From NCBI RefSeq assembly GCF_019649055.1, contig NW_026570602.1:1-31568 (forward strand): a stretch of DNA of 31,568 bases, read 5' to 3'. How positions within the stretch are numbered: the first letter of the stretch is position 1; each line of letters begins with the position of its first letter. This document shows, piece by piece, positions 1 through 30,468 of this stretch. The notes beneath the pieces were generated by a model, which was not told where the DNA came from, made no database searches, and saw only the letters and a list, made by a program, of their open reading frames with translations. Made by a program: the position numbers and the translations under genes. The stretch is from Paramacrobiotus metropolitanus. Its lineage: Eukaryota > Tardigrada > Eutardigrada > Parachela > Macrobiotidae.

Positions 1-6
1 TGTGGG
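1..6. repeat. Target-site duplication, left copy (TGTGGG)
   Basis: TGTGGG directly precedes the left inverted repeat and is identical, in direct orientation, to the six bases after the right inverted repeat. Six bp is the duplication length known for Polinton integrases. The window begins exactly here, so a longer flank cannot be compared. Confidence 0.85.
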
Positions 7-73
7 TGATGAAGAGAGCGCTGTTTTGGCGAACGGCGCCCCCCCACCCCCCGACATGCGCGGGCGGGTGACG
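7..73 (+). repeat. Left terminal inverted repeat
   Basis: Bases 7-48 are a perfect reverse complement of 30421-30462. The repeat starts TGATGAAGAGAGCGC and includes a run of seven C. After a short divergent stretch the block CGCGGGCGGGTG is shared again, so the imperfect repeat runs to about 73. Confidence 0.92.
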
Positions 74-4296: not shown

Positions 4297-4305
4297 TTTA
4301 TATAT
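4297..4305 (-). promoter_or_regulatory. TATA box of the packaging ATPase, overlapping the polymerase stop codon
   Basis: TATATAAAA on the minus strand, 36-44 bp upstream of the ATPase ATG (4261). Its TAA is the stop codon of the polymerase gene (4298-4300), so the two signals share bases. Confidence 0.5.
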
Positions 4306-7300
4306 GCCGAAAACCGAAAGGTACAGTCCAATAGTTAGAGGTAACAACTCTCTTATCAAATGTGAATCTAAAACGTTTTGTTTGTGGCCGCGATTGCAAA
4401 GTCCACGATCCTTTCAATCGAAATATTTTGAACGGGTTCAGAACATTATGTTCGGTTTCCGGATGCATTACCATTTCCTTTAATGTCTCTGGATGGAATA
4501 AAGTTAGGTTACTTTGGTTAATTGTTATGCCCTTGACCTTGAAGGCGCTATTTCCATTTTTAGTATAGTACGCATACATTTTAGGTCCTCCGCAAATAAA
4601 AACAGTGATCTGATCGTCACCAATCTCTGATTTAAATTCACCGAGGCAATCACCAACCGGTAAACTACTCCATCCAGGTCCTTCTAAAGCAATTATGCAG
4701 TCTGTATCGACATACAATAACCGCTCGATACCCACAAAATGCATAGCTGTATAAAGCTCCATTCGAGCGTAGCTCGTCACAAACGCAGCAATTATGACGT
4801 TAGCATTCAAATCATTTCCATCTGCTTCACACACTCGCGAGCTTTGCACTTGTAAAACTTCTTCGGTGGCAACATCCACATACGAAACAGAATAGTTACC
4901 CGAATAAAAAAGCTCATTAAATCTTTTTATGTTTTTAACGTACTCGAATTTTGGCCTGTTTTCCTTAATCGCAAGACGACCCCACAATGTGTTAAGCATA
5001 AGCTTTGAAAGGAGCCGACGAGTTGGATTGAACGTAACCTTTGCCGGATCAACCTTAACTTGATCTGTGTTTGCCAAGTTTTGCAAATAAGAAGTTTTGT
5101 CGGTTTCAGTTTTGCAGCTTTTTGGATATCCACTGGAGGCTACCTTTTCTGCCATAAATGTAGATATATATTTAGAAAACAAGTCTCCTTGCAGTGGATA
5201 ATGCCAGATTTCAAATATTTTAATGATTTGGTATCCGTAAGCAACAGCCATACGGAGCTCAGGGGTTGTGTATACCGCATTAAAACAGCGTTCTTTTTCA
5301 GTATGTTGACAGACAGCCTGATTATCTGAGGCGCATCTCCAACAGAGAACAAACATGCATTTATTGTTTATCCGTTGCGGAAGAACCGGAAGATTTAGGC
5401 TTGTTGGCGGTAAAATTCGAACATGAGCGATACCAAAAAAATCTGAAAGGTCACAGTCGTTAGGGTATAATTTTATCGGAAGACCGATTGGATACAATTT
5501 TTGTTTGCACACAGCTGGATATAAAGAATTCTTGTCTAAGTACGAAATGTGTTGACGTTTTGATATATCAGCTGTAGCTAGAAGGCGGAAAGCCTCCGTG
5601 CGACCACCATAGAGCACATCCCGTACGCACATGGGTTGGATATGACAAAATTCTTTAAGAACGCAGCTGATTTCTGGGAGCTGCTTCATTTTTCTCCACT
5701 GGCAACTCCAAATGCATGTATATCTATAACCTTGTTTTTTTAAGTTTTCCATTTTTTGCATCGTGGCTGTGTACAACTGTGCCATCGTTCGACCGCCATG
5801 GGCAGTTGACTCTTTAGTAAAACATTTTTCGCACCCATGGAAATAACAACCGTGGTACTCCAAAACCTCTAAATGCTCCTCGATAAAGCCATCAACCTTG
5901 TACTTTCCGATCCTTTTTTCACCATTCTGATGGTTTCTAGCATGTCTTATGTAACATTTTCGCTTAGCAGACAAATAATACAACCACTCCAAGCTTTCAA
6001 AAGAGTATGTTCTCTGCGTCTGCAGATCTTGGTAAGTAAAGTGCTGGATACTACTTTCTGGCATGAATCGTGCACGGTACACCAAATTAACAAAGCTAGG
6101 AAGTGACATTGACTCAACTAATGGATTAAAATCTGTCAACGCTTTCATATCCTTACAAAACCTCTGGCATGCTTCTTTTAAAACCTAAAAATTATGGTTT
6201 TTAAAATTGTTCAAATCGTAATGGAAAATTGTACCTGGCAATCATTTTCACAATATTTAAGTATTTCATCGTGAAAATTCCATATTGCTTTACTGTTAGA
6301 CTCTTCGGCATACCATCCAATGAATTCTCTGTATTCATTAGCTTTCATTTGCGAAACCATATAGTACTTGATATCTGGCATTTTACCGCTGTAATTAATA
6401 TTGTCTCGCGTTGCAAATAAAAACGGAAATCGCCCTTTAGCTCCACTAAAACCAAAAGCTCCAGGCATTTCGCCTAAACTCATTGGCAGGAACGCTAGTG
6501 AATCACGTAGCGTAATATTGAATTCTTTAACATAGATTTGCAAAAATTTTAATCCACGCATTACTACTTCTGGCCAAATTTCCTGCTCTTGAAGAAACTG
6601 CATAATAAAATTGCCATCGTACCCCATCAAGTTATGGAATATAACAATAAAATTCTTATGGGTGGCGTTAAATAACCAATGACAAAACTTCGCGCCTGCA
6701 TTACGCCCAAAAAAAGTTTCCGCCTTTCCATTATCGGATACCGCTACTGCTGCAATTGGCACGTGAGTGGTATTACTAATATCAGCTTCAAAATCACAGT
6801 ATAAAAATGAACGATCTGGCTTAGGGGAAAGCGAATATCTTTTAACAAAACAACGATGATCAGGCTCTACTGTTAACTTGCAGTTGCGGCAATAATATTC
6901 ACCGCATTGATGAGATGGGTTGGTAGGACTTCGCTCTTTGCATCGTTTCAATATTATTCCACAGTCTTGACACTTAAATCTTAGCTGGCACTCAGTCAAC
7001 CCTTGAAGCTTGATTGCAGTCTTGTGATAGTTATAACAAATTTCGTTTTTAAAAGAGCAGAAACATTCAGTGCAGTGAATTGTTTTTGTTGTGTCAGGTT
7101 GGCAGTCTAAGCGATGGCATACAAAACAAGCATATTCACAGCGGTGAGTTTTCAGTGAACATGTGATGAATTTTCTGCAACGGGGACATTCTCTACGTTT
7201 TCCAAAAAAGCGAGCAGGCTTTATGATGGGCCAGTAATGCCGCTTAAAAAGTAATATATATAATTTAGCAGGAACTGGATCAGCACCGACATTTCGGCCA

Positions 7301-8247
7301 CAGTAGATCAGCCCATTCTCAAAATCAGTATCTTTGTAAATTAAAATCTGGAAAGCTGGTGACAAGGCGGTTTGAAACTTTTCGTACATTTGTACGTTCA
7401 CTGCTCCTGGATGCACATCGGCCATTTTATATAATTTTAACGCTTCGTTTTTCTGGAAATCGCAGCGAGCGTCACATATTTTTTTCCATATATAGTTATT
7501 TGTCTGATGAAGTTTTCGAGCATGAGCTAAAACGATGGCCAATGCACGGGCGAAACATAAATCGTCAGTGTTACGCACGTAAATTACTCCTCGATAAGGT
7601 AGGATTCGTTGCAGGTTACGCAAGTGATGCACCTTTGAACCACCAGAAGGTGGTCTTGGTATACGAATTAAATTAATAAAAACAGGGGCATCCAGCGTAA
7701 ACTCCGTTTTTGAAGTTAGGGTGTTAGCAATCAAGTATAGAAACATCTCAGCATTTACAGAATCTTGGGGAGCTAGTTTTAGCTGTATGGGGTGAGATAA
7801 CTGGGTCGATTCTAAGGACATGCTTATCAAATCGTTTTGGTTAGGAATGTAAGTTCTTAGGTTGCGAAAAATGTCTTCTAGCAGGGAAAGCAATACCGGC
7901 AAAACGCTATCAACGCCCTTTATTGCCAACGGCTTTATCGAAATTTGAAAATTACCTGCCCAGACGTTATATTTTTTGCTGTGACGAGTTTTAATGGCTT
8001 TTAAAGCATACCATTCGGAGGGATGTAGTACTGCTTTTGCTGATAACGAAGTATCCTCCTTTTGACTAAGCTGTTTAATATACTTGAAAAATAGTTTATA
8101 GGAGAAAATCACGTGTCTTGTTTGGCGGTATAGGTTCGAGCATTCTTCAAGTGTATTACACTGAGAGTACAGATTCTCAAGCTTTTTTTCACCAAATTCG
8201 TCTTGCTTGATAGTCATGTTTTCATCGGTTGGTGCATGAATTGCCAT
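4298..8247 (-). CDS. Protein-primed family B DNA polymerase (pPolB), two exons
   Basis: Replicates the element by protein priming, as in adenoviruses and Polintons. Exon 1 is 8247-6235 and exon 2 is 6184-4298; the 50-bp intron (TGCCAG|GTACAA ... ATTTTTAG|GTTTTA) keeps phase 0 and gives about 1299 residues. Order: an N-terminal domain with TDDLCFARAL (C231) and a later KRHYW (H337), resembling an OTU-type Cys/His pair; a Cys/His-rich zinc region (354-466); Exo I DFE (D485, E487); Exo II HNLMGYDGNF (539-546); Exo III YCEND (665-669), right before the splice site; motif A DKNSLYP (near 888); motif B KLMLNTLWG (near 1065-1073); motif C YVDTDC (near 1163-1167). All polymerase and exonuclease acids are present. 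The start is the ATG at 8247, below a minus-strand TATA box. Without the intron the exonuclease part would end about 7 residues after Exo III. Confidence 0.93.
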
Positions 8248-9504: not shown

Positions 9505-10503
9505 CTAGAACTCAGTATCTAAACTAAATTGGATCTCATTGTCTGTCATTCCAACATGAGCTTTCCGATATTCGGACACCCTTCTTTCAAAAAAATTCGT
9601 TTTTCCTTCCAGCGATATCGACTCCATAAAAGGAAAGGGGTTGGAGACATCATACATAGGTTCTAAATTAATCATAGCGCATAACAGATTGGCAACGAAC
9701 TGAATATAGATTTGCATCGAGCTGGAATTAAGTCCAACAAGAGGAAATAAGAAGGCGTTCTTCCAGAACCGCTGTTCAACTTCTACCGCATTTGCTATGA
9801 GTTCACTGGATTGTTCGGGTGATAATTTATTTTTTAGCTGACTGTATAGCCAACATGCAAACTCAACATGTTGGGATTCATCTCTTGAAATTAATTCATT
9901 ACTAAAGGTTAAGCCCGGTAAAATTCCTCGGCTTTTCACCCAAAATATCACAGCGAACGCCCCACAAAAAAAGATCATTTCTACACAAGCAAACGCCAGA
10001 ATGCGTTCCGCAAAAGGCTTTTCCTTGTCAGTTATGTATCTTGCTGCCCATTGGCCCTTTTCCTTAACATTTTTGTTTAAAATTATAGCTTGGAGAAGCT
10101 CCCCTCGTTCCTTTGAATTTCGAAAAAATGTGTGAATTAACAATGAATATGTTTCGCTGTGAATATTTTCCATCAGAATTTGGAAAGAATAAAAAGCTCG
10201 AACTTCTGGCCATTGCACTTCAGTTAAAAAATTTTCGGCTAAATTTTCCAAAATTATTCCATCCGATGCAGCGAAAAAAGCTAAGACATTCCCTAGCAAA
10301 AATTTTTCTTTGACGTGTAAGTCATTCCATTGCAAGATATCCTTGCTTAAATCAATTTCCTCAGGTGTCCAAAAAAGCGCTACTGTTTTTTTGTACAACG
10401 CCCATGCCTCTTCATGCTCGATAGGAAAAAGTACCAGTCGTTTCCATGATTTCATTAAAATAGGCTCGCTGTCTTTTTCAGTTTCCTCAACTAATTCCTT
10501 CAT
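9505..10503 (-). CDS. Ribonucleoside-diphosphate reductase small subunit (class I R2)
   Basis: Makes the diiron-tyrosyl radical for reducing ribonucleotides to deoxyribonucleotides. 332 residues of the eukaryotic/viral R2 type with no intron. All metal ligands are present at family spacing: D81, E112, H115, E175, E209, H212, with radical tyrosine Y119 in ENIHSETYSLL. Other R2 blocks are RLVLFPI, FWTPEEIDLSKD, SNELISRDE, NPFPFMESISLEGKTNFFERRV, and a C-terminal FSLDTEF that fits the peptide docking to the large subunit. The usual VEGIFFSGSF reads VEMIFFCGAF here. No large subunit is in the window, so it probably pairs with host R1. It is convergent with the 8511 gene and divergent from the 10771 gene. 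Confidence 0.95.
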   Translation of the reverse strand: MKELVEETEKDSEPILMKSWKRLVLFPIEHEEAWALYKKTVALFWTPEEIDLSKDILQWNDLHVKEKFLLGNVLAFFAASDGIILENLAENFLTEVQWPEVRAFYSFQILMENIHSETYSLLIHTFFRNSKERGELLQAIILNKNVKEKGQWAARYITDKEKPFAERILAFACVEMIFFCGAFAVIFWVKSRGILPGLTFSNELISRDESQHVEFACWLYSQLKNKLSPEQSSELIANAVEVEQRFWKNAFLFPLVGLNSSSMQIYIQFVANLLCAMINLEPMYDVSNPFPFMESISLEGKTNFFERRVSEYRKAHVGMTDNEIQFSLDTEF

Positions 10504-11567: not shown

Positions 11568-11746
11568 ATCAGATTGTTGTCAATCGATTAAAGTTTACTT
11601 GATGTAACATCTAGAATTGCGATAATTTTATCATTGATCATGAAACTGTTATCACCTTTGCGTGTCTTGCGTGGTAATCATGAATAAAAACGACATCCTA
11701 CACTAACTTGAGCATTGGTTCTGTTTTTCTCTATTGGCATGCCATT

Positions 11747-12373
11747 ATGACTAAATATGGTAGATTAATAGTGCTTGAGGGATTAAACGCTTCAGGAAAG
11801 TCTACGCAATGCTTACGTTTGCAAAGGTCGCTTACTGATTTGGGTCACAATGTCAAAGTTTACAATTTTCCGCATGTGCCTGACAGGGACAAACTAGGTT
11901 TGTTGCCCCTTATACAAGTGATTCTATCCTCTCCTGAGCTATTGCGTTCGACAACCGCACATCTTCTGTTTTGCTCTCAGCGCTCAGTATACGCAGAGCA
12001 AATTTCGAATGATCTAGCGGCTGATAAAATAGTAATAATTGATAGATACTGCTTGTCTGGAATGGTATATGGAATTTCACGAGGCTTAAATCCGCAGTGG
12101 ATTGAAGAACTCGAAACAGGGCTGAATTGTCCGACTCCTGACCTGACCTTTTTTCTGGAAATTCCTCCTATGGCAGCTCTACGCAGAATGCTTATTCGGA
12201 AAGAAGAAAATCCGGAAGCTGTCAAGGATATTGTGATAGATGATTTAGGGAAAGTGCAGGCTGCATATGATAACATTTTGCGTCCTCTTAAAAATATCAT
12301 TCGAATAAATGCGCAACTGCCCGAAGACATCATTGCGAAAACGATTTTAAATACTGTATTAAATAATTTTTAA
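11747..12373 (+). CDS. Thymidylate kinase (dTMP kinase)
   Basis: Phosphorylates dTMP to dTDP, the step feeding dTTP synthesis. 208 residues from the ATG at 11747; the frame is open upstream but only with a non-ATG codon. P-loop EGLNASGKST (11-20), the family DRY-x-x-SG motif (99-105, DRYCLSGMVY), PDLTFFLEIP (131-140) before the LID segment (RRMLIRKEENPEA). The substrate-binding FPxR region reads FPHVPDRDKLG, a slight rearrangement. No intron. It pairs functionally with the R2 gene 1.2 kb upstream on the other strand. Its 5' side holds the poly(A)-type signal of the preceding gene (near 11684). Confidence 0.93.
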   Translation: MTKYGRLIVLEGLNASGKSTQCLRLQRSLTDLGHNVKVYNFPHVPDRDKLGLLPLIQVILSSPELLRSTTAHLLFCSQRSVYAEQISNDLAADKIVIIDRYCLSGMVYGISRGLNPQWIEELETGLNCPTPDLTFFLEIPPMAALRRMLIRKEENPEAVKDIVIDDLGKVQAAYDNILRPLKNIIRINAQLPEDIIAKTILNTVLNNF

Positions 12374-12640: not shown

Positions 12641-13580
12641 TGATCGTAGGCTCTTCCACTTATAGCCAGTAATTTTACTTATAGGCAGTTGTAGCTTTAC
12701 ATATAGTCAACCATACTTAACATATGGTCAAATGTACATCATGTTTTACTTATGGTCAACCGTACTTTAATCTATGGTCTACCGTACTTCAACTTACGGT
12801 GAAACATACTTTACGTCTTATTAATGCTCAACCGTTACTTTCCGTTATGGTTAAGCGTCTATGGTAAACCGTACTTTTACGTACGGTCAACGGCACTTGC
12901 ACTTATGGTCAAACGTGCCTCTACCTATGGTTAACTGTACTTTGACTTATGGTCAGCTGTACTTTCACTTATGGTCAAACGTGCCTTTACCTATGGTTAA
13001 CCGTATTTTAACTTATGGTCAACTGTACTTTTACTTATGGTCAAGCGTGCTTTCACCTATGGTCAGCCGTACTTTGTGTTTTAATTATGGTCAGCCGTGC
13101 TTTCACTTATGGTCAAACGTGCCTTTACCTATGGTCAACCGTACTTTCACTTATGGTCAAACGTGCCTTTACCTATGGTCAACCGTACTTCATTATATAG
13201 TCAAACGTACTTTGTGTTTTAATTATGGTCAGCCGTGCTTTCACTTATGGTCAAACGTGCCTTTACCTATGGTCAACCGTACTTTCACCTATGGTCAACC
13301 GTACTTCATTGTATAGTCAAACGTACTTGTGTTTTAATTACGGTCAACTGTACTTTTACTTATGGTCAAGCGTACTTTCACCTATGGTCAGCCGTACTTC
13401 ATTATATAGTCAAACGTACTTTGTCTTTTAATTATGGACAGCCGTACTTTCACTTATGGTCAAACGTGCCTTTACCTATGGTCAACCGCACTGTCACTTA
13501 TGGTCAAACGTGCCTTTACCTTTGGTTAACTGTACTTTTGCCTATATTTTTAAGTCGTGATTTTGCTTGAGGTCAAGCGT
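12641..13580 (+). repeat. Central tandem array of 22-bp repeats built on TATGGTCA
   Basis: Over 30 tandem, partly degenerate copies of a 22-bp unit whose core is TATGGTCAACCGTACTTT (variants TATGGTCAAACGTGCCTTT, TATGGTCAGCCGTGCTTT). Two variants often alternate as 44-bp dimers, and a longer module with TTTGTGTTTTAATTATGG recurs near 13076, 13216, 13330 and 13423. The keyword is always on the plus strand. The array lies between the replication half and the virion half, in a gap between converging genes. Long open frames across it are a by-product of the repeat. From 13581 to 13776 nothing is seen. Confidence 0.9.
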
Positions 13581-13776
13581 TCTTTGAAAATGCTCAGCGT
13601 TTATGTCTTGGGGTTTTTTAAATTCACTACAACAAACGACAAATTTTCGCACGTCAGTGAGGTTTGAGTGGAAAAAATCGAAAAAAAACAACTAAAAAAT
13701 TTATAGCTTTATAAATACATAAGAAAATAGGCATGCAGGAGCAGGAACACGTAAACATTTCTGATTATAAAATAGA

Positions 13777-16672: not shown

Positions 16673-17695
16673 TTAGAATGCTGACCTGACTAAAGTTAAG
16701 TCTTGTTTATAAAATTGCGCCACACGACTTCCATCACGCACCAGTACCTGTCGGCTATCAGCTGTGGCAATGTGGTACGTAATGACCGGTCCATAAATTA
16801 TATTAGAAATTTGAAATAATTCGTCCGAAAAATTCCTTGTGTAACCTTTAGAAAAGGAATTTTTTTTCAAACTTATTCGAACGCGATCACCAATTTTAAA
16901 TGCCGGTTTCTGAAGCTTTATAAACTTTTTCTCCTGTCCTTGCTTAAATAAAGATGCTTGATTCATGTGGGTTATTTCTTTCGGTTTCTTTTTGTGCCCG
17001 GTATGTACACGATTGTTATAGTTTTCAATAATATTTTGCAGGGCGTTTTCCCAGTTGGGATTTTTTGTAAATGTTAAATGCCTGAATATAATCATTTTTA
17101 AAGTACGGTTAAACCGTTCAGCTAAGGCGGCTTTATGGCGAGAACTTGATATCTGGTGATAAATGCCATATTTCGCGTACATCTCCCGCGATTTTTCATT
17201 GACAAACTCTTTCCCGGCATCAGTCACTAAAACACTGGGGTGACGTTTTTCAAAAAGCTGACCCATTGCTTCCGCAACCGCAATGGCTGATTTATTTTTT
17301 AAAGGTTGCGAAAATGCAAAGCGACTGACACAATCGATCATAGTCAAAATATAGCGAAAACGAAGATTAAATCGCTTAAGCTTTTGCATTTCTACAAGGT
17401 CAGCATGCCAGACGTTGTCCACTCCTACGCAGAAATTTTTTAATTTTTTAAACTTTATTCGTAAAGGGCGGTGCAGCGTATATACATCTTGCTGTGCCAG
17501 AAAATCTTTTACGTCTTTTCTCGAAAAACTCAAATTTAAATTTTTTGATCTATCCTTCGCTATGCGGTACAACGCCGATTCATTGGCTAGATAAGCTGGG
17601 GAGGAAATGTCCGTAAATAAACTGCGTAAGAGAGTCGCTTTGCGCCGATTTACAGACGCTGACGGGATTTTAGTTGCTGCGCTTGTCTTCACCAT
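16673..17695 (-). CDS. Retrovirus-type (rve) integrase
   Basis: Inserts element DNA into the host genome, giving the 6-bp duplication seen at the ends. 340 residues from the ATG at 17695; the frame continues upstream only to a GTG. Catalytic triad: D99 (VWHADLVEM), D159 (VLVTDAGKEF) and E193 (LAERFNRTLK). Spacing is D-x59-D-x33-E. An N-terminal zinc-finger of HHCC type is not obvious. The C-terminal part (FKIGDRVRIS...) is the usual SH3/chromo-like tail. It is transcribed divergently from the dsRNA-binding gene; a minus-strand TATAAAA is at 17756-17763. Confidence 0.93.
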   Translation of the reverse strand: MVKTSAATKIPSASVNRRKATLLRSLFTDISSPAYLANESALYRIAKDRSKNLNLSFSRKDVKDFLAQQDVYTLHRPLRIKFKKLKNFCVGVDNVWHADLVEMQKLKRFNLRFRYILTMIDCVSRFAFSQPLKNKSAIAVAEAMGQLFEKRHPSVLVTDAGKEFVNEKSREMYAKYGIYHQISSSRHKAALAERFNRTLKMIIFRHLTFTKNPNWENALQNIIENYNNRVHTGHKKKPKEITHMNQASLFKQGQEKKFIKLQKPAFKIGDRVRISLKKNSFSKGYTRNFSDELFQISNIIYGPVITYHIATADSRQVLVRDGSRVAQFYKQDLTLVRSAF

Positions 17696-17755
17696 TTCTA
17701 GTGCACTCACCTCAAAATCAATTCCTTCACAAAAATGGTTATTCCAGTAAGTCAG

Positions 17756-17906: not shown

Positions 17907-18539
17907 ATGATTAAATCTTTTCTCATCGGCTGCCGTGCAGAAGAAAATGTTTATAAGCATACTGGAAATCAGAGTGGAGCATCGTTTCCTCATTTTCTGA
18001 CAGTAATGGTTCGACGCTACTTTTCTAACATTGCAAATGCTGTCGGAAAAATTTTAGCTTTTGAGGTTACCTATAAAACTATACCTCGAAACAAAAACGA
18101 ACCACCGATCTGCAAGCAACGTGCCGGTATTAGTGTGGAAGATATCTTTGCGGTAGGTGTTGGTAGAAGTCCACACACTGCAAAACAGGACGCTGCAAAA
18201 AAATTGCTTGCCGTTATTTTAAGAAATTACCATTCTAGATTGCTCGAGTGTTTAGAAAAATCGTCATTTGATCACCCTTTAATTTACCCCAATTTTTTGG
18301 AAAATTTGGCAAACATACTGGGGTTTGATGTTGAATTCAAAAAACTTCTTTCGGCAGAACCCGCTATTTTTAATTATCAGGCCAGTGTTCCTAACGAAGA
18401 AATATTAGTCACCTCAACCGGGTCAACAGTTAACAACGCTAAAGCCGACTCTGCACGACAGTTACTAATTATTATATTGCATAATTATCATAAACAATTA
18501 CTGGAAATTTTGGATTTGCCGCCTTTTATCAGTAGCTGA
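17907..18539 (+). CDS. Protein with two double-stranded-RNA-binding domains
   Basis: 210 residues. dsRBD1 (about 40-105) has the third-helix signature GVGRSPHTAKQDAAKKLLAVIL with the basic KKxAK-type residues (K93, K98, K99). dsRBD2 (about 130-192) is more diverged: VTSTGSTVNNAKADSARQLL. No catalytic domain is attached. Free-standing dsRBD proteins are known in viruses as dsRNA sponges that block RNAi or PKR-type sensing; that role is inferred here. The stop codon is one base before the ATG of the eIF2-beta-like gene on the same strand, so the two are probably coexpressed. No intron in this frame. Confidence 0.82.
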   Translation: MIKSFLIGCRAEENVYKHTGNQSGASFPHFLTVMVRRYFSNIANAVGKILAFEVTYKTIPRNKNEPPICKQRAGISVEDIFAVGVGRSPHTAKQDAAKKLLAVILRNYHSRLLECLEKSSFDHPLIYPNFLENLANILGFDVEFKKLLSAEPAIFNYQASVPNEEILVTSTGSTVNNAKADSARQLLIIILHNYHKQLLEILDLPPFISS

Positions 18540-18540
18540 A

Positions 18541-19150
18541 ATGGCGCCAATTCGCTTGGGGAGTGGAACGCCGCGAAACACATCACCGGAGCCGACCGAA
18601 TCGATATTGTTTTGCGGTGAGGAGCCGCTACCTGGCACAAGTCTTCACAATTTAACACTGACCTTGGTAAGAATACCGGTCTCAAACAGTTTTTGCTCGT
18701 TAAACTATATATCATTTTTGTTCTTTTATACAGCCTTTACCGGTTCCGCTGTTAAATTACCACTACTTCAATACTGCAAAGACGCGTCTGACAAATTTTT
18801 ATCATTTTCGGAACATTATGGAGCAGCAACTGGTTCCACTTCACGTTTACATTGGCTACGCTTTACGAACGTTTGCAATTTGCATGGCAGGAAGTGCTGC
18901 AGATATCGATACGGTTACCGGAAATTCATCGGTAGACGTTTACGATAAATATACATGTTTGGAAATTTATGGTCATTTTCATTTTCGGCAAATTCACCAG
19001 GTTTTAAAAAATTATTTCAAATTTTATGTCCAGTGTCAACACTGTAACCGTTGCGCGACTATTATCGTACGTAAAAGACGCCGTTTATGTGTGTGCTGTT
19101 TTGCTTGTCACTCAAAAGTCTACGTTACCAAGCATGAAGGCTGTGCTTAA
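18541..19150 (+). CDS. eIF2-beta/eIF5-fold protein with intact zinc ribbon, two exons
   Basis: Exon 1 is 18541-18666 and exon 2 is 18734-19150; the 67-bp intron (ACCTTG|GTAAGA ... TTTATACAG|CCTTTA) is phase 0 and gives 180 residues. Residues 60-180 match the eIF2-beta/eIF5 N-terminal core: helix YALRTFAICMAGSAADID (like the family AELGTSGSID), an inhibitor-like linker, HFRQIHQVLKNYFKFYV (like QIENVLRRYIKEYV), then a zinc ribbon C143-x2-C146-x17-C164-x2-C167, the same spacing as eIF2-beta. The lysine-rich N-terminal extension of cellular eIF2-beta is missing; the first 42 residues (exon 1) are unrelated and proline/threonine-rich. It directly follows the dsRBD gene. A decoy for initiation-factor partners is inferred, not shown. 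Confidence 0.75.
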
Positions 19151-20111: not shown

Positions 20112-23100
20112 TTAATTCTCTTCATGTCTGAATCTCTCACAACTACGCCACAACCGAATGCCACTGGCAGCAGCGCCTTCGTTTTCCCGGGCCAAAGTGT
20201 CATAAATGACGCTGGCGGAATATGCAGCCATCCCGCGATGGAATTCCGGTGTGTTGGCGCTCTGGGACCACACGTTGGAGAGTCGCATCGTGCGCGGGTC
20301 CAGGTTGTGAGCGAACGACTCCATCACCGATCCGCGCTGTTGCCGTTCTGACGAAATTCAGGAAGTTAGTTATTTAAATTATTTTTTTACTGGTAAACGA
20401 TAGCAAAGCAGATTACATATGATTGTACCTTCATCTTCCAAATCAACAGCGCTAAGAAACAGTTCATCGTCGCCGATGTTGCCGTTGCTAACGGACTCAC
20501 TTCCGCTGGCGGCACCGTTCTCTGCTGAGGGTGAGACCAATGTATGTGAACTTATGATTGATAATTTTTTATCCATATGGGTACGAATTAAGACAGATAA
20601 ACTTAGTTTTCGTCTGGTTAGCGCAGTTCTTATCTATTCTTACACTATTTTAATTTCTGTGATTTTTATCAAAAACACATTTCATACCTTCGGGTTGCTC
20701 GCCGGGGCCGACATAATTTTCATTGTTGAGATTGTGAGGAGCGTCTTCTTCAACGGGGGCAGAAGGTTCGGCCGTCCGATGGAAAAAACTGCGGATTTTC
20801 TCGCGCTTGCGGAAAAGCAGGAAAGCTCCAATTAAAACGCATCCAATAATAGCAACTGTGACGCCGACCACACCACCTACACCAAATTCCAAAGGTGGCG
20901 GAGTTGGTTGCCCTGTAAAACACGATGGGCATGGAGGGCAGACGTGTACTACAACGCATTGTTTTTCATATTAACAGCAAAGTATAGAAGAAGCGGCAGT
21001 GGCACTGCTCACCCGTCTCGTTGTTAGTGTTGCGTCCCACAGTGGAGTTATCATCATGCACATGAATGAAAGTTGCATTTTTATTATTCACCACATCAGA
21101 CGAAGAAGAAAAATTAAAAAGCGAATTCTCCGCAAAATCAACTGATATATACGCCGTGTCGTTGATTATAAAATCAGCAAAATCCATTACTAATTGCGAC
21201 GAATTTTCCTGACTCCATGAAACAAGGCCAGATAAATTCGACGATTCAAAAAACGACGTGTAATCCAAATCAACGGAGGTTGATTCCAGCGACTTATTGC
21301 TGTCTCCATCGAAAGCAATAGATACAGTAAAATTAATCGCCGCGTTTTCTGACGCTTTCTCAGGATATACAGCGCTATATTCTGACGAAGTTGACACAGC
21401 AATAGCTTCCCCGGTTTCATTAAAATGAGACGGTCGCGGATAATTCGGAATCAATTGACTGCTCGTATTTTTTATGAAATTAATAACCGAGGAATTCGCA
21501 CTAACATTTTTTGACACACTCTCGATTCTAAACGAGAATTTTTCCTCGCGTTCCATTATGTAAACTTTTTCTGTCTTTTCAATCTGACTTTTATCATTAA
21601 CGATTTCTGACTGCGTGTCTTTAATCAGGTGCTCTGACACGTTTAAACTAGACGTCACCACGGGGTGATTATCCGCATATTCAATGGAAACAGACGGCTC
21701 TGTATATAACGAGGATAATGCTGAAATTGCGGTGGGATAGTAAGTGGTCACGAAAGATAACTCAGCGGTAACCAGATCTGGGTCCAGAGGTTGTGGATCA
21801 GTAATTGCAGATGAATCATAAAAGTCTACACGTTCAGGGGACGTTGTCACGCTCATAGCTTTCACCGGCAGACTTTCACTGACCGTACTTTGAACTGTAC
21901 TGGAATAATCGTCCTTACCATCAGTAGTATCATGTGTCGAGACATCGACAGCCGCCTGCGTGGAAGACCAATGAAGTGGAACCGTATGTGTTTCGGAGGG
22001 TGTGGTCGCGCTAATCCATGGTGGGAAAATGGGTGGCAGATCCATCCAGTGACAGCATGGTGCGTGCGAGCAGCCTTTACGTAAGTCTGTAAGTCAAAAA
22101 CTAATCTTTCAAGATTAATCCTCTTTAAATACTGTTTGTAAAAACAAAAGCAGAATATCATACCTAATATCTTAGAGAATAATTCCGTTATTCGCCCTTG
22201 CACATAAACCTGAATTTTTATTCATTATTAATTTTAACGTTTTGTTTTTTATTGGCATTAACCTGGTTGACTAACGCCTACCTGCGGTTAATCCGCACTC
22301 TTGCCTATAGTTAGTCGTAGTTTACTTATGGTCGTCCGATCATCTACATTTTCTTCGACTCTTAATTGTGTCCTTCTAGATTAGCGAATAAAAATGAAAT
22401 TCAGTCAGAAAAAAACCTACTTTGGAAAAAGTATTTTTAACGAGAAATAGTGCGGCAGAGGTAATAGTTTAAAACATTGTCGGTCGTAGTTTTACGTATG
22501 GTCAACCGTAATTTCACCTATGGCCTCACATACTTTTAGTTTTACATAGAGGCAGCCATACTTTCAGCTATGGTCTAACGTACTTGTTCCTATGGTCACC
22601 TCGTGATACGTACCAGCGTCGATACTAAAAATAAAATTCAGTAATAAATAAAATCAACTTTGGGAACAGCATTTTCAGCGCGCCAATGTGCGGCAGCAGT
22701 AACAGTTTTAAATATTACCGATTGTAGTTTTACATATGGTCAACCGTAATTTCACCTATAGTCTAACATACTTTTAGTTTTACATAGAATCAGCCATACT
22801 TTCACCTATAGTCTAACGTACTTGTTCCTATGGTCACCTCGTGATACATACCAGCGCCGATACAAAAAATGAAATTCAGTAATAAATAAAATCAACCTCG
22901 GGAACAGCAGTTTCAGCGCGCCAATGTGCGGCAGCAGTAACAGTTTTAAATATTACCGATTGTAGTTTTACATATGGTCAACGGTAATTTTACCTATAGC
23001 CCACAATACTTTTAGCTTTACATAAAATCAGCCATACTTTTACCTATGGTCTAACGTACTCGTACCTATTGTCAGCTCGTGATACGTACCAGCGCCGATA

Positions 23101-23673
23101 CAAAAAATTAATTTCAGTTATAAATAAATCTACTTTTAGATCATCATTTTGAACGAGCAAATATGCGGCGGCAGTAACAAATTTCAATTTTTTCGGTCGT
23201 AGTTTTTCGTATGGTCAACCGTAATTTTACCTATAGTCTAGCAGACTTCTTGTTTTTCATAGAATCAAACCATTCTTTTATCTATGGTCTACCGTACGTT
23301 TATCTATGGTAACTACATGTTACGTACCAGCGCCGCAGCGAGAGATGGCCCTAACACCGAGTTGCTCAATACACTCCAGTTCTCGGCAACGGTGTCCGTC
23401 AAAGGTCGTGCCGGAAAGAACAATGACTTGCAAATCCGGAAAATTTAAAGTCGGACGCCAGTTGGGCAGCACATAAATGCCGGAATTGCTCATGTCCAGA
23501 ATGCGAACACCGGAAACTATATCTTTCGGCTGGTTGTCCAAAGGCCATGTCGTCACGCGATGGTCATTACATTTCCATAGGGCTGCAGTACAAATGCAGA
23601 ATCGCGGGCATTGTACAGAATTTGCAGCTGACAAAGCAGCTGCTAAAACGATCACACAAAGTCCCAGCCACAT
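20112..23673 (-). CDS. Five-exon membrane glycoprotein: signal peptide, LRR cap, mucin-like stalk, TM helix, tail
   Basis: Exons 23673-23328, 22086-21013, 20912-20688, 20524-20429, 20347-20112; all junctions are GT-AG and every phase fits (1,1,1,1), giving about 658 residues. The ATG at 23673 follows a non-ATG open stretch and gives a clean signal peptide (MWLGLCVIVLAAALSAANS). Next is an LRR N-terminal cap (CPRFCICTAALWKC) and one or two LRR-like strands with Cys pairs. Exon 2 encodes a 357-residue Ser/Thr/Asn-rich ectodomain with many N-glycosylation sequons. Exon 3 has the transmembrane helix (VGGVVGVTVAIIGCVLIGAFLLF) followed by KREK. The tail has no known signalling motif. This looks like an animal surface receptor or adhesion protein, and could also serve as a virion glycoprotein. 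Intron 1 is 1.24 kb and full of repeats. Confidence 0.78.
22260..23335. repeat. Tandem array of ~238-bp units inside intron 1 of the glycoprotein gene
   Basis: About four copies start near 22483, 22721, 22958 and 23196, each opening (C/G)GT(C/T)GTAGTTTT(A/T)C(A/G)TATGGTCAACCG and ending with a (T/C)GTGATACGTACCAGCG-like block. Each copy holds two to three TATGGTC words. The last copy runs into exon 1: its end block contains the splice donor of exon 1 (minus strand, G|GTACGT at 23327), so the other copies duplicate that donor-like site. A partial related stretch is at 22310. Confidence 0.8.
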
Positions 23674-27075: not shown

Positions 27076-28234
27076 GCGGGAACTAGTCATATCTAATTAA
27101 ATAGCAATTATGCCGAGTATGATCAACAGTGTGCGAATACGTAACAGATTATGTCAAATAACTGTTCGGCTGCAGGTGTTGAAGTGGTTCACTCCGTAGA
27201 TTGCTGAAGTAATACCGCGCGGATTGCAATTAACATATAAATCATCTTTATTTCCTTAACTAAAGAGTCGAAATCATCTTCTTCATCTATTTTGACTGCA
27301 CTGCTCCATTCAGTGCCAACAAAATTTGTAAAATACCGGCAGTTTTTTGGTTGCGGGATTTTTGTTGGCACACTCGAAATATTAATTAAAAAATAATATT
27401 GAATTTTTTGGTTAATCTTCAGCATATCTGGGGATGCAGCGCCGTGCCGTTGACCTTTACCGGCGTCATCGATACTGTCACGCCCTCGGCGGCTTTCCGC
27501 TAGCCGGAGCTCTCAGTGACACACTGCTCATCGTTTTCCTGCTCTTCCATGTCCTTCTCTTTGTCGGACGCGATCTTGACTGGATCGTGGTTTTATCCCA
27601 TGTAGGGACGAAATTCGATTGCTAAACAGTTTTTCATATTTTCGTGTGTTGCTGTTTTTCACAACAGCAGCTGTCCACTGTTAACGGCTCTGTGCCATTT
27701 ATATGAGTCCTGTAAACTGTACGCTGTAAAGATAAATTAATTTAAATATGTGCAAATTACAGTTATCTTTGTCCCGCGGAGGGGATACTGTATTGGGTCA
27801 CAGTATGATCGATAGATAGCATTTCCTAAATGATGAAGCTGGTCTTTTTATTCAGACAATGCCGACTAACGTAACTACATGCATGTGTTGATAGAGCGTA
27901 ATGAAAAAGACTGAAGAAGCTTGACCTATTTACCGAAGAAGTTTTGTATCGCTCTCTCCTCTAATGCATACCAAAGTATTCCAGGTACTGATCCGGCAAG
28001 CTGCAGCGTCAGGGCAATTGTATCCTTAATGAGGTTTCTCTCTGAAAATTATGCTGCGAGAAGATAACAATACTCTACTGTCATCACTACCCACAGCAGT
28101 AACAGATAACCGGTAAAACCCGGATTCTAGCGCCATGGCAACTTGAACTACTCCTGGGTATTTAGATAAACACTTTACAAGCAATAACGTCAGTATTCGC
28201 ACTGTGAAATTAATTTATTTTACAAACGTTGGCA
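27076..28234. other. 1.1-kb region without a clear gene
   Basis: AT-rich sequence. On the minus strand, 27440-27600 reads as an acidic exon-like stretch (KEKDMEEQENDEQC) interrupted by a TAG stop, possibly another exon fossil. The rest shows nothing recognisable. The last 30 bp lead to the JmjC ATG; no TATA box is apparent. Confidence 0.4.
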
Positions 28235-29773
28235 ATGTCTTCTAATAAAGCGAACCCTCGCCGGCGGTACATCACAGTCAGTGAGATGCCCACCATTGGG
28301 AATATAATCTACGAGTGTTTAGAACACCATGTTGAAAATCGCGGTTATAAAGTGCTGAATATCCCACCTCAGTGCCGAACACGTCTTGATCCGATCCCAG
28401 CAGTTCGAGAACTGTATGCAAAGAAATCCATTTTACTTGAACGGGCGCCCGGCTGCTACTTTTCTCACGTGCAGAAAGAAAAGGTCCTTACTTACCAGCA
28501 GTATCGAGCTAGCAGTCGCGGAGAAAGCTCACTTGACGCCAGCTTTGGGGAGCTCGCCAATCGCCGGAAATGGTATGTGGCCGATATTCACATACCGGAA
28601 TTGGACGGCCTCCAGACAATGGAATTCTTCAATTTCAATACGTTTTCGGATATTTTTCGCCAATCTGGAGCGAACATCCCGGGATTCAACACCTCCACCG
28701 GCTTTATCGGCGCACCTTACACTTATTTTGGTTATCACGTCGAGGTGGCTAATTGCGCCTTCATGAATATGCATCATGGAGGTAAGCCAAAGCGGTGGAA
28801 CATTAGCCCTCCCAGATGTAAATGGGCCTTCGATAACTTCCTGTACAAGACTTTTCCTGAAGAGTTTGAAGCGTGTGGAGGAGCTGTGGGCCACCTCAAC
28901 TTTGTGGTAGAGCCCGACACTCTCCGTGACGAAGATATCTTGGTCGATGAGTTTGATCAAGAAGAAGGGGATTTGATAATCAGTGCCTACGGTGCGTACC
29001 ACGCTGGGATTAATTCAGGGTTTTGTATAAATACGGCGACAGCCATCACAACTCCCGCCTGGATCCCAGCATTTGCTGAATCCGTCAACTGCCACTGTGA
29101 CCCGCAGGCTGATATCGCCCCTGAACTGGAAAAGATTCGTACGTACCTCACGAACCGGAATAATTTCGATGTGGATGTCAATTATGCTTACCTGCAGCGA
29201 GTAAGTTACACTTTGAACTTCAGTCAATTTTATAATTTCTAGTACGTAAATAACATAAGTACTACTACTTTTCTTATTTTAACGAAATAACTTTTTTTAG
29301 AGAGGAGAGTGGCATTTAGAGCAGTTTTTACCGGCGTCCCGTCGGCGTCAAGACGCCTCCTTAATGGTGGGAGCGGTGACACAGCCAACCGCCCCAGTCG
29401 ACATCATGGACCAGTGGATCCACCAGAACATCGTTTACGACCCGGCGTATAAAAAATGTAAGTAAAATGTATGTATGTATTAAATGGAATATTAATAAAA
29501 ATGTATGTGCCAAATACAAACATGTTACGTACACGAAAATACACTTTTGTATAACTTGATTAAGGGATCCGCCCATGTCAAGCTGCGCGCCGGTTCCGCC
29601 AGTACATGCAGAGCAATGGTATGCCGTACAATATGGAAGAAGTTGCTCTGGCAACAAGCCTTGGGAAGCGAATGCCCCTTGTTCATGATGGATTTACGGC
29701 TGGCGCTCGTAAGGGAGAGCATCGAGAGTCTCTCTGGACTTGGCCGCACTGTTATTTCATCGATGCGGATTGA
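28235..29773 (+). CDS. KDM4-like JmjC histone demethylase, three exons
   Basis: Iron/2-oxoglutarate lysine demethylase, expected in the nucleus on H3K9/H3K36 methyl marks if it keeps family specificity. Exons 28235-29200, 29301-29457, 29565-29773, introns 100 and 107 bp, phases 0 and 1, giving 443 residues. A diverged JmjN (about 12-46) is followed by JmjC. Fe ligands H168, E170, H256; 2-oxoglutarate-site N178 and K186; the KDM4-specific zinc site C214-x5-H220 and C286-x-C288. All sit at a constant offset from their KDM4A equivalents. A 7-residue gap after PYTYFG precedes H168. There are no PHD or Tudor domains, as in short KDM4D-type proteins. The open frame starts at a TTG at 28229; the ATG at 28235 is used. 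Splice sites and ligands are intact, so it may be functional. Confidence 0.85.
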
Positions 29774-30394: not shown

Positions 30395-30462
30395 TGACCA
30401 CCCGCCCGCGTAAGTCTTTAGGTGGGGGGGCGCCGTTCGCCAAAACAGCGCTCTCTTCATCA
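30395..30462 (-). repeat. Right terminal inverted repeat
   Basis: Reverse complement of the left end: 42 bp identical (30421-30462), then a diverged stretch and a second shared GC-rich block (CACCCGCCCGCG). The outermost bases read TCTTCATCA on the plus strand, directly followed by the TGTGGG repeat. Confidence 0.92.
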
Positions 30463-30468
30463 TGTGGG
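30463..30468. repeat. Target-site duplication, right copy (TGTGGG)
   Basis: Direct copy of bases 1-6, immediately outside the right inverted repeat. Confidence 0.85.

Follow-up and report, generated by a model that had tools for sequence, protein, structure and literature searches.

The question raised by this locus is why a Polinton of a tardigrade should carry, side by side, one gene for a protein with two double-stranded RNA-binding domains (dsRBDs) and a second for a look-alike of the translation initiation factor eIF2-beta. The window analysed here is a stretch of 31,568 nucleotides (nt) from Paramacrobiotus metropolitanus that makes up the entire contig C382 (NW_026570602.1; C-numbers denote contigs of the 169.8-Mb assembly of this species, which was also the genome searched), of which a 30.4-kb Polinton spans positions 7-30462. 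The two genes (open reading frames, ORF1 and ORF2), their order, the selection acting on them, a desert of AUG triplets between their starts and a TATA-like box before the first of them are all seen in the sequence. The reading of these features that we favour, and to which we give an even chance, is that one bicistronic Polinton mRNA carries both genes and that the ORF2 protein acts at the eIF2-gamma/40S start-codon machinery, aiding the element.

Both genes lie on the forward strand and, as originally predicted from the window alone, are separated by a single base: the stop codon of ORF1 (TGA) occupies 18537-18539, base 18540 follows, and the ORF2 ATG begins at 18541. ORF2 consists of a first exon of 42 codons that has no lysine (18541..18666), a 67-bp phase 0 intron with the ends GTAAGA...ACAG (18667..18733), and a second exon of 138 codons plus stop (18734..19150) that was delimited by alignment of 14 copies. 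The N-terminus encoded by exon 1 is poorly conserved except for its last residues, other copies also having an end like (L/I)xL ahead of the donor. The predicted splicing of ORF2 was borne out, as the junction is kept in other copies (...LIL before it and PLPxP... after it) and the NCBI model LOC129602211 (protein P0003), from a 37,530-bp contig of the same species, has the same junction. In C21b and C27 the intron contains a tandem duplication with a second acceptor and the first exon 2 codons, and alternative acceptors are possible there.

The identity of the ORF2 protein was sought by comparisons of exon 2 with solved and curated families. Exon 2 of the window matched PF01873, the family of eIF2-beta and its archaeal counterpart aIF2-beta, at E=1e-7 (32.3 bits against a curated cut-off of 27), and human eIF2-beta at E=1.5e-5 over residues 73-131, which hold the last helix and the zinc ribbon (18950..19126, forward strand), so that the similarity is not limited to the four cysteines. 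All 14 aligned exon 2 members matched PF01873 at E≤0.1, some of them slightly below its cut-off (P0003, for example, at 26 bits). A profile of these 14 members found aIF2-beta and eIF2-beta chains in the PDB at 5e-7 to 3e-3, and a profile-profile comparison with four eIF2-betas gave a probability of 95.9 and E=5.9e-9, covering helix and ribbon only. The ribbon is in the register of human eIF2-beta and has the predicted spacing C-x2-C-x17-C-x2-C; its four cysteines are invariant in the 14 aligned members and all kept in 19 of 20 intact copies, the exception being C127 with glycine for the first.

The original prediction had spoken of an eIF2-beta/eIF5 core, of which only the last helix and ribbon, and only the eIF2-beta side, stood. 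The first 70 residues of exon 2 scored 10.4 against eIF2-beta, and 100 shuffles of their columns averaged 10.9 and reached 22.5 at most; the best-scoring alignment of these residues falls in the co-linear place, but comprises KTxxxNFxxxxxxM only and has a shuffle-level score, and we rejected them as a proven part of the core because the shuffled controls scored equally. An origin from eIF5 was rejected since eIF5 was matched only at E=0.77 by the exon 2 profile; host loci that by eye appear eIF5-like lie on C12 and C218. Also rejected was a stray retrocopy of host eIF2-beta, because the host gene is separate, on C154, has its intron elsewhere, and shares 34% identity with ORF2 over 64 residues, while the element family is diverged and under selection. 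The eIF2-gamma-binding alpha1 helix of eIF2-beta was not found, as the profile alignment covers columns 72-131 of exon 2 and exon 1 has no Pfam match; nor were the N-terminal lysine boxes (K-boxes) or a full eIF2-beta C-terminal tail. As judged from sequence, the ORF2 protein is thus a partial relative of eIF2-beta and not an eIF2-beta, because two defining parts were sought and not found. These absences bear on whether the protein could help to translate mRNAs of the element itself, as a counterpart to the eIF2 subunits found in giant viruses; these viruses encode an eIF2-beta apparently of eukaryotic origin according to the sections of PMC11946776 that deal with it. We regard such a role as very unlikely, since a protein without alpha1 helix, K-boxes or full tail would hardly replace a whole subunit.

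ORF1 (18006..18539, forward strand) encodes a tandem-dsRBD protein of 177 residues. Its start had been predicted at 17907, which had to be corrected: the alignment of 10 copies has a shared MVR(R/K) start, MVRR at 18006 in the window, behind the TATA-like box. In several copies a stop a few codons 5' of this start closes the ORF1 frame, and the 33 residues upstream of 18006 in the window are therefore probably not part of ORF1. The prediction of two dsRBDs was confirmed with profiles. A Pfam dsrm match was obtained for all 10 members at E≤0.1, and the profiles of the two halves matched each other at E=2.5e-21. The profile of dsRBD1 (18006..18260) found dsRBDs of Staufen and PKR in the PDB (best E=0.0056) and that of dsRBD2 (18261..18536) those of PKR (8e-5), Loquacious, PACT and TRBP; for each half, the PDB matches up to E=10 were all dsRBD-containing proteins. 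Single-sequence searches with the separate halves were weak or silent, and no other Pfam domain scored above cut-off in the ORF1 of the window.

The motifs KKxAK and GPxH mark RNA-binding dsRBDs, and some dsRBDs of Staufen, Loquacious and PACT are protein-binding. ORF1 is like the dsRBDs of these proteins and PKR in having the dsRBD fold by profile, and differs from them in that canonical KKxAK is present in none of its 20 intact copies and, in the ORF1 of the window, no further Pfam domain above cut-off accompanies the fold. A loose GPxH pattern fits four of these copies, where inspection by eye places it not in the loop but at the beginning of the last helix of dsRBD2. Because its dsRBDs lack KKxAK, sequestration of dsRNA by the ORF1 protein is uncertain. 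The original prediction was that the pair manipulates both host dsRNA sensing and translation initiation. Its initiation half remains the best reading of a pair that is conserved, under selection and part of a Polinton; its dsRNA-sensing half is weaker because KKxAK is absent and the nearest solved dsRBDs include protein-binding domains.

The same evidence bears on the possibility that the pair opposes translational shut-off in the manner of poxvirus E3 and K3, in which case the dsRBD protein would hide dsRNA and the eIF2-beta-like protein would compete at eIF2, allowing translation to persist under eIF2-alpha kinases. PKR is the best solved match of dsRBD2, and most poxviruses are described as carrying a pair of proteins that inhibit PKR, namely E3 and K3, the latter a mimic of eIF2-alpha. 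However, the mimic in the tardigrade element is of the beta subunit and not of the kinase substrate alpha, the RNA-contact motif is missing from ORF1, and PKR is to our knowledge not known from invertebrates; we consider this explanation unlikely.

How the second gene would be reached by ribosomes is suggested by the sequence between the two starts. In 15 of the 19 same-strand copies with intact ORF1, the ORF2 ATG lies at -83 to +4 nt from the ORF1 stop, and by eye it lies at +5 in C11, C127 and C186. A fusion of the two proteins by frameshift was rejected because the frame relation varies among copies. No internal methionine is present in 19 of the 20 intact ORF1s, the other being the decayed C95 with two. 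Among eight representatives chosen from the 20 (C95 and C222 left out), methionine accounts for none of 1769 ORF1 codons, compared with 74 of 3644 codons in nine other genes of the window and 22 of 1121 in exon 2; the Fisher value of 1e-13 overstates independence as the copies are related, and the ORF1 of the window alone gives p=0.027. The depletion extends to all frames: between the starts of the eight representatives there are 13 AUGs versus 36.7 +/- 3.7 expected from 1000 synonymous shuffles (minimum 26), and a single AUG with a purine at -3 versus 16.1 expected (minimum 8). The AUG-free run between the starts reaches 775 nt in C21b and 754 nt in C222, the latter lacking an internal AUG in spite of its frameshift ahead of the donor.

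The TATA-like box (TATA[AT][AG]; 17952..17957, forward strand, in the window) is placed before the first gene and rarely before the second. It occurs at -40 to -90 from AUG1 in 11 of 12 copies, where 0.64 were expected from shuffles, the observed positions being 52-76 nt upstream; before AUG2 it occurs in two of 11 copies, where 0.70 were expected, both from one subfamily (C288 and C361). Both sets of copies are chosen samples that include near-duplicates. The box would be the promoter of the unit. ORF1 is, by these counts, AUG-depleted and the AUG of ORF2 the next good start. Because ORF1 is nearly free of AUGs and the box stands before ORF1 and rarely before ORF2, the arrangement has the signature of a bicistronic, leaky-scanned unit, and the simplest reading is that of a short-leader bicistronic mRNA on which ORF2 is reached by leaky scanning.

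Other routes to ORF2 would be termination-reinitiation, an internal promoter or a splice form, and we think it improbable that any of them accounts for the unit. The nearness of most ORF2 starts to the ORF1 stop would suit reinitiation, but overlaps of 68-83 nt in several copies fit it poorly and an AUG-free ORF1 is not needed for it. The box before AUG2 would suit an internal promoter, but is confined to the one subfamily, and the acceptor-like sites before AUG2 share no common place. For leaky scanning there are described parallels: bicistrons of green algae are argued to use it, and stoned and Snapin of Drosophila are cited likewise, in the relevant sections of PMC11291117. The tardigrade unit resembles these in the scarcity of potential initiation codons ahead of the second gene, and differs from human papillomavirus E6/E7, whose E6 has 12 internal AUG triplets (PMC11291117, same sections). 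It also differs from the leaky-scanning bicistrons in that its AUG1 context is not weak and its second gene resembles part of the start-codon-selection machinery itself.

The pair is not peculiar to the window. The 29 matches returned by searches of the genome with exon 2 come from the host eIF2-beta gene and from 26 element loci, of which two are each in two pieces. ORF1 matches were obtained at 25 loci, all within these 26, the remaining one being a fragment on C10; 25 of the 26 ORF2 loci of this genome have an adjoining ORF1. At a second locus on C55 (833657-834785) the two genes stand tail to tail, apparently through a local inversion. Among the best 117 of 1044 candidates, the integrase of this clade (44-100% identity) was found at at least 24 loci, all with the pair, and not for C186 or C10. 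Among the best 81 of 347 candidates, the capsid-like protein of the clade was found at no fewer than 25 loci, and the pair is present at 23 of these; ORF2 without a capsid-like match occurs on C148, C186 and C10, and the capsid-like loci without the pair are on C149 and C9. The former of these looks truncated; the 3.5 kb read there held neither integrase nor pair, and a weak exon 2 match (E=0.005) falls in a stop-containing stretch. Many copies show short gaps in the integrase and capsid-like matches, close to residues 161/162 and 475, which suggests further small introns in these elements. The genome also holds a second, larger Polinton-like group, with at least 40 capsid-like loci at 22-29% identity; no match to ORF1, ORF2 or PF01873 was found at these loci, the PF01873 search having found only 19 of the 26 known ORF2 loci. 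From these distributions the pair would seem to characterise a single Polinton clade.

No relative was found outside the species in protein collections, viral contigs or phage records, other tardigrades not having been searched as genomes. Exon 2 as a single query gave no match among 5.8 billion proteins; the sole match of the exon 2 alignment in the protein collection was P0003, in a search that required shared 5-mers and that distant relatives may escape. The alignment of the ORF1 dsRBDs gave none at E≤0.01 among the best 8000 protein candidates. Nothing was found in viral contigs searched with exon 2, its alignment and the capsid-like protein, nor in phage records. Only one ORF2 copy of many, and no ORF1 protein, was returned from the protein collection; the missing ORF1 protein might fit an annotation of transcripts by longest frame.

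Whether the pair has been maintained by selection was assessed at 25 pair loci examined for open frames (C111 left out), of which 20 have an exon 2 of at least 130 codons and 20 an ORF1 of at least 170. Within groups, omega for exon 2 was 0.05-0.17 in 16 of 21 comparisons. The other five comprise three with C148, which has an altered C-terminus (0.32-0.68), C11/C127 (0.50, 17 changes) and C32/C65 (0.86, four changes). For ORF1, omega was 0.08-0.31 in 20 of 26 comparisons and 0.43-0.71 in six (four with C148, C32/C65 and C361/C17). Between subfamilies, pS of 0.67-1.04 is near saturation, versus pN of 0.11-0.35 for exon 2. The exon 2 gene has thus been functional, to judge from its conservation over saturated synonymous time. 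The protein distances of ORF1 and ORF2 are correlated (r=0.90 over 17 copies), and none of 2000 permutations gave a value as high.

In the mechanism that we favour, one Polinton promoter would give one mRNA carrying both ORFs. Ribosomes that halt at AUG1 would make the tandem-dsRBD protein, and those that pass it would encounter hardly any AUG, or none, over some 530-780 nt before initiating at AUG2, the product being a short protein with the eIF2-beta helix and zinc ribbon at its C-terminal end. In eIF2-beta itself, the alpha1 helix binds eIF2-gamma, the ribbon makes a second contact at the nucleotide-binding face of eIF2-gamma, and both the binding of Met-tRNAi and fidelity are influenced by the ribbon, as described in the structural and genetic passages of PMC11230868. 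The helix-ribbon module of ORF2 would most likely dock on eIF2-gamma near its GTP-binding face, or on the 40S/initiator-tRNA surface used by eIF2-beta, and a tetherless ribbon would compete at, or add to, the second eIF2-gamma site. The result would be that start-codon selection, or the use of ternary complex, is shifted in the element's favour. The dsRBD protein would act on dsRNA or on host dsRBD proteins, for example cofactors of RNA interference (RNAi); given the missing RNA-contact motif, it may form dimers with such host proteins. We infer three of these steps, namely leaky scanning itself, the site of docking and the advantage for the element. A further possibility, which we think doubtful, is a self-tuned switch, in which the leak-dependent ribbon alters start-codon stringency, and thereby determines the proportion in which the two proteins are made and shifts initiation on other mRNAs of the element. 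Such a feedback loop is possible because ORF2 would itself be reached by scanning past an AUG.

Several observations weigh against this mechanism. The context of AUG1, with G at +4 and G (C90: C) at -3, is not weak by vertebrate rules; in C7 and C21a an AUG falls on the predicted transcription start or beyond it; and of the 19 same-strand copies in which ORF1 is intact, four have an ORF2 frame that is interrupted or shifted before the donor. The lack of KKxAK in ORF1 and the shuffle-level first half of exon 2 count in the same direction, as do two of the residues of known effect in yeast. In yeast, S264Y in the ribbon weakens eIF2-gamma binding and increases UUG initiation, F217A/Q221A in the helix-turn-helix causes a fidelity defect, and S264 and T238 in the ribbon affect initiation fidelity and gamma binding, in the passages of PMC11230868 on these mutants (and, for SUI3-2, of PMC6298780). 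The equivalent of Q221 is Q in only two of 20 intact copies, those of the window and C55, and H in the other 18, and that of S264 is S in three of 20, with F, I, M, A or G elsewhere. The equivalent of F217, by contrast, is invariant in these copies and speaks for the mechanism.

The varying equivalents of T238 and S264 would also suit a zinc ribbon repurposed for binding RNA or protein, with a role in gene regulation, RNAi suppression or the virion and none in initiation. Such a ribbon would accord as well with the four to six basic residues in the 17-residue loop and with a first half of exon 2 that matches no family significantly. Nevertheless, all 13 distinct PDB sequences found up to E=1 with the exon 2 profile are named translation initiation factors, the position equivalent to yeast F217 holds F without exception in the 20 intact copies, and most omegas are very low, and we hold this alternative to be rather unlikely. 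The action on initiation proposed above remains our preferred reading.

The element that carries the pair is a Polinton/Maverick by its terminal repeats, 6-bp duplication, PolB and RVE integrase. The left terminal inverted repeat (7..70, forward strand; 64 nt) is 91% complementary to the right one (30399..30462, reverse strand), and the repeats are bordered by a target-site duplication, TGTGGG, at 1..6 and, as a perfect 6-bp match, at 30463..30468. Target duplications of 6 bp are typical of Polintons. The copy on C55 (126397-156641), with 98% DNA identity to the window element, bears its own target duplication, TATAAA, and because the two duplications differ, two independent insertions carry the pair. 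PolB is of the viral type PF03175 (DNA_pol_B_2), matched in two frames at 2.6e-27 and 5.7e-21; the frames (window 4298-8247) are split around 6148/6211 by a short intron or break. The integrase (16673..17710, reverse strand; Pfam rve 8e-13) is the divergent neighbour of the pair, and the order integrase (-), dsRBD (+), eIF2-beta-like (+) recurs in other copies. An A32-like ATPase matched Pox_A32 at E=4.2e-4 and 20.3 bits, under the cut-off of 22.8. Two proteins that by their position are the putative double-jelly-roll major and minor capsid proteins gave no match in Pfam or PHROGs, nor the larger one in the PDB.

The element has further cargo. A protein with a BIR domain (inhibitor-of-apoptosis-like) is encoded at 801-1904 (Pfam 2.5e-28, two stretches) and, within the terminal repeats, a histone-demethylase-like protein with a JmjC domain at 28229-29242 (Pfam 4.2e-19). 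A ribonucleotide reductase small chain and a thymidylate kinase are encoded at 9505-10503 and 11708-12373, respectively; nucleotide-supply genes are commoner in large DNA viruses than in Polintons. Direct-repeat arrays at 12669-13585 and 22389-23335 flank the block of capsid-like genes, integrase and pair, and stretches of one array are 67-77% identical to stretches of the other.

Among known systems, poxvirus E3 and K3 and ranavirus vIF2-alpha are similar, as far as they are described, in that the same viral genome encodes a protein of the dsRNA-binding type and one that imitates a subunit of eIF2. In poxviruses the dsRNA binder E3 and the mimic K3 each have a gene of their own; the genes of the tardigrade pair adjoin or overlap as one unit. 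The original prediction had drawn this parallel with an eIF2-alpha mimic, and it holds as a functional analogy but not in the kind of mimic, which is a beta-type zinc ribbon and not an eIF2-alpha pseudosubstrate: no eIF2-alpha (S1) pseudosubstrate domain was found in ORF2, as Pfam finds only PF01873 in exon 2 and nothing in exon 1. By analogy, the pair may act like E3/K3 but is no member of that system. Viral attack on eIF2 has, as far as we know, been described mainly through the alpha subunit. Giant viruses (Mimiviridae and others) likewise have an eIF2-beta homologue in a DNA virus, but theirs are treated as homologues of the eukaryotic subunit in the sections of PMC11946776 on these genes, whereas the tardigrade protein is a free-standing short module whose partner in the Polinton is a tandem-dsRBD protein. 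No publication on an eIF2-beta-like gene in a Polinton was found by title or abstract start, in a search that most subscription journals lay outside, and papers on related viruses, searched by term, mention neither eIF2 or initiation factors nor dsRNA or tardigrades.

A stand-alone eIF2-beta ribbon would be a natural reagent for the ribbon's own role, for which yeast genetics relied on point mutants. The feedback loop in start-codon selection becomes directly testable, because the cassette is apparently leaky-scanned and its second product resembles part of a factor for start-codon choice. For Polintons, the pair indicates that they can carry host-interaction cassettes. A conserved unit of a dsRBD protein and an eIF2-beta look-alike, apparently on one mRNA, suggests that such elements tamper with how cells start making proteins.

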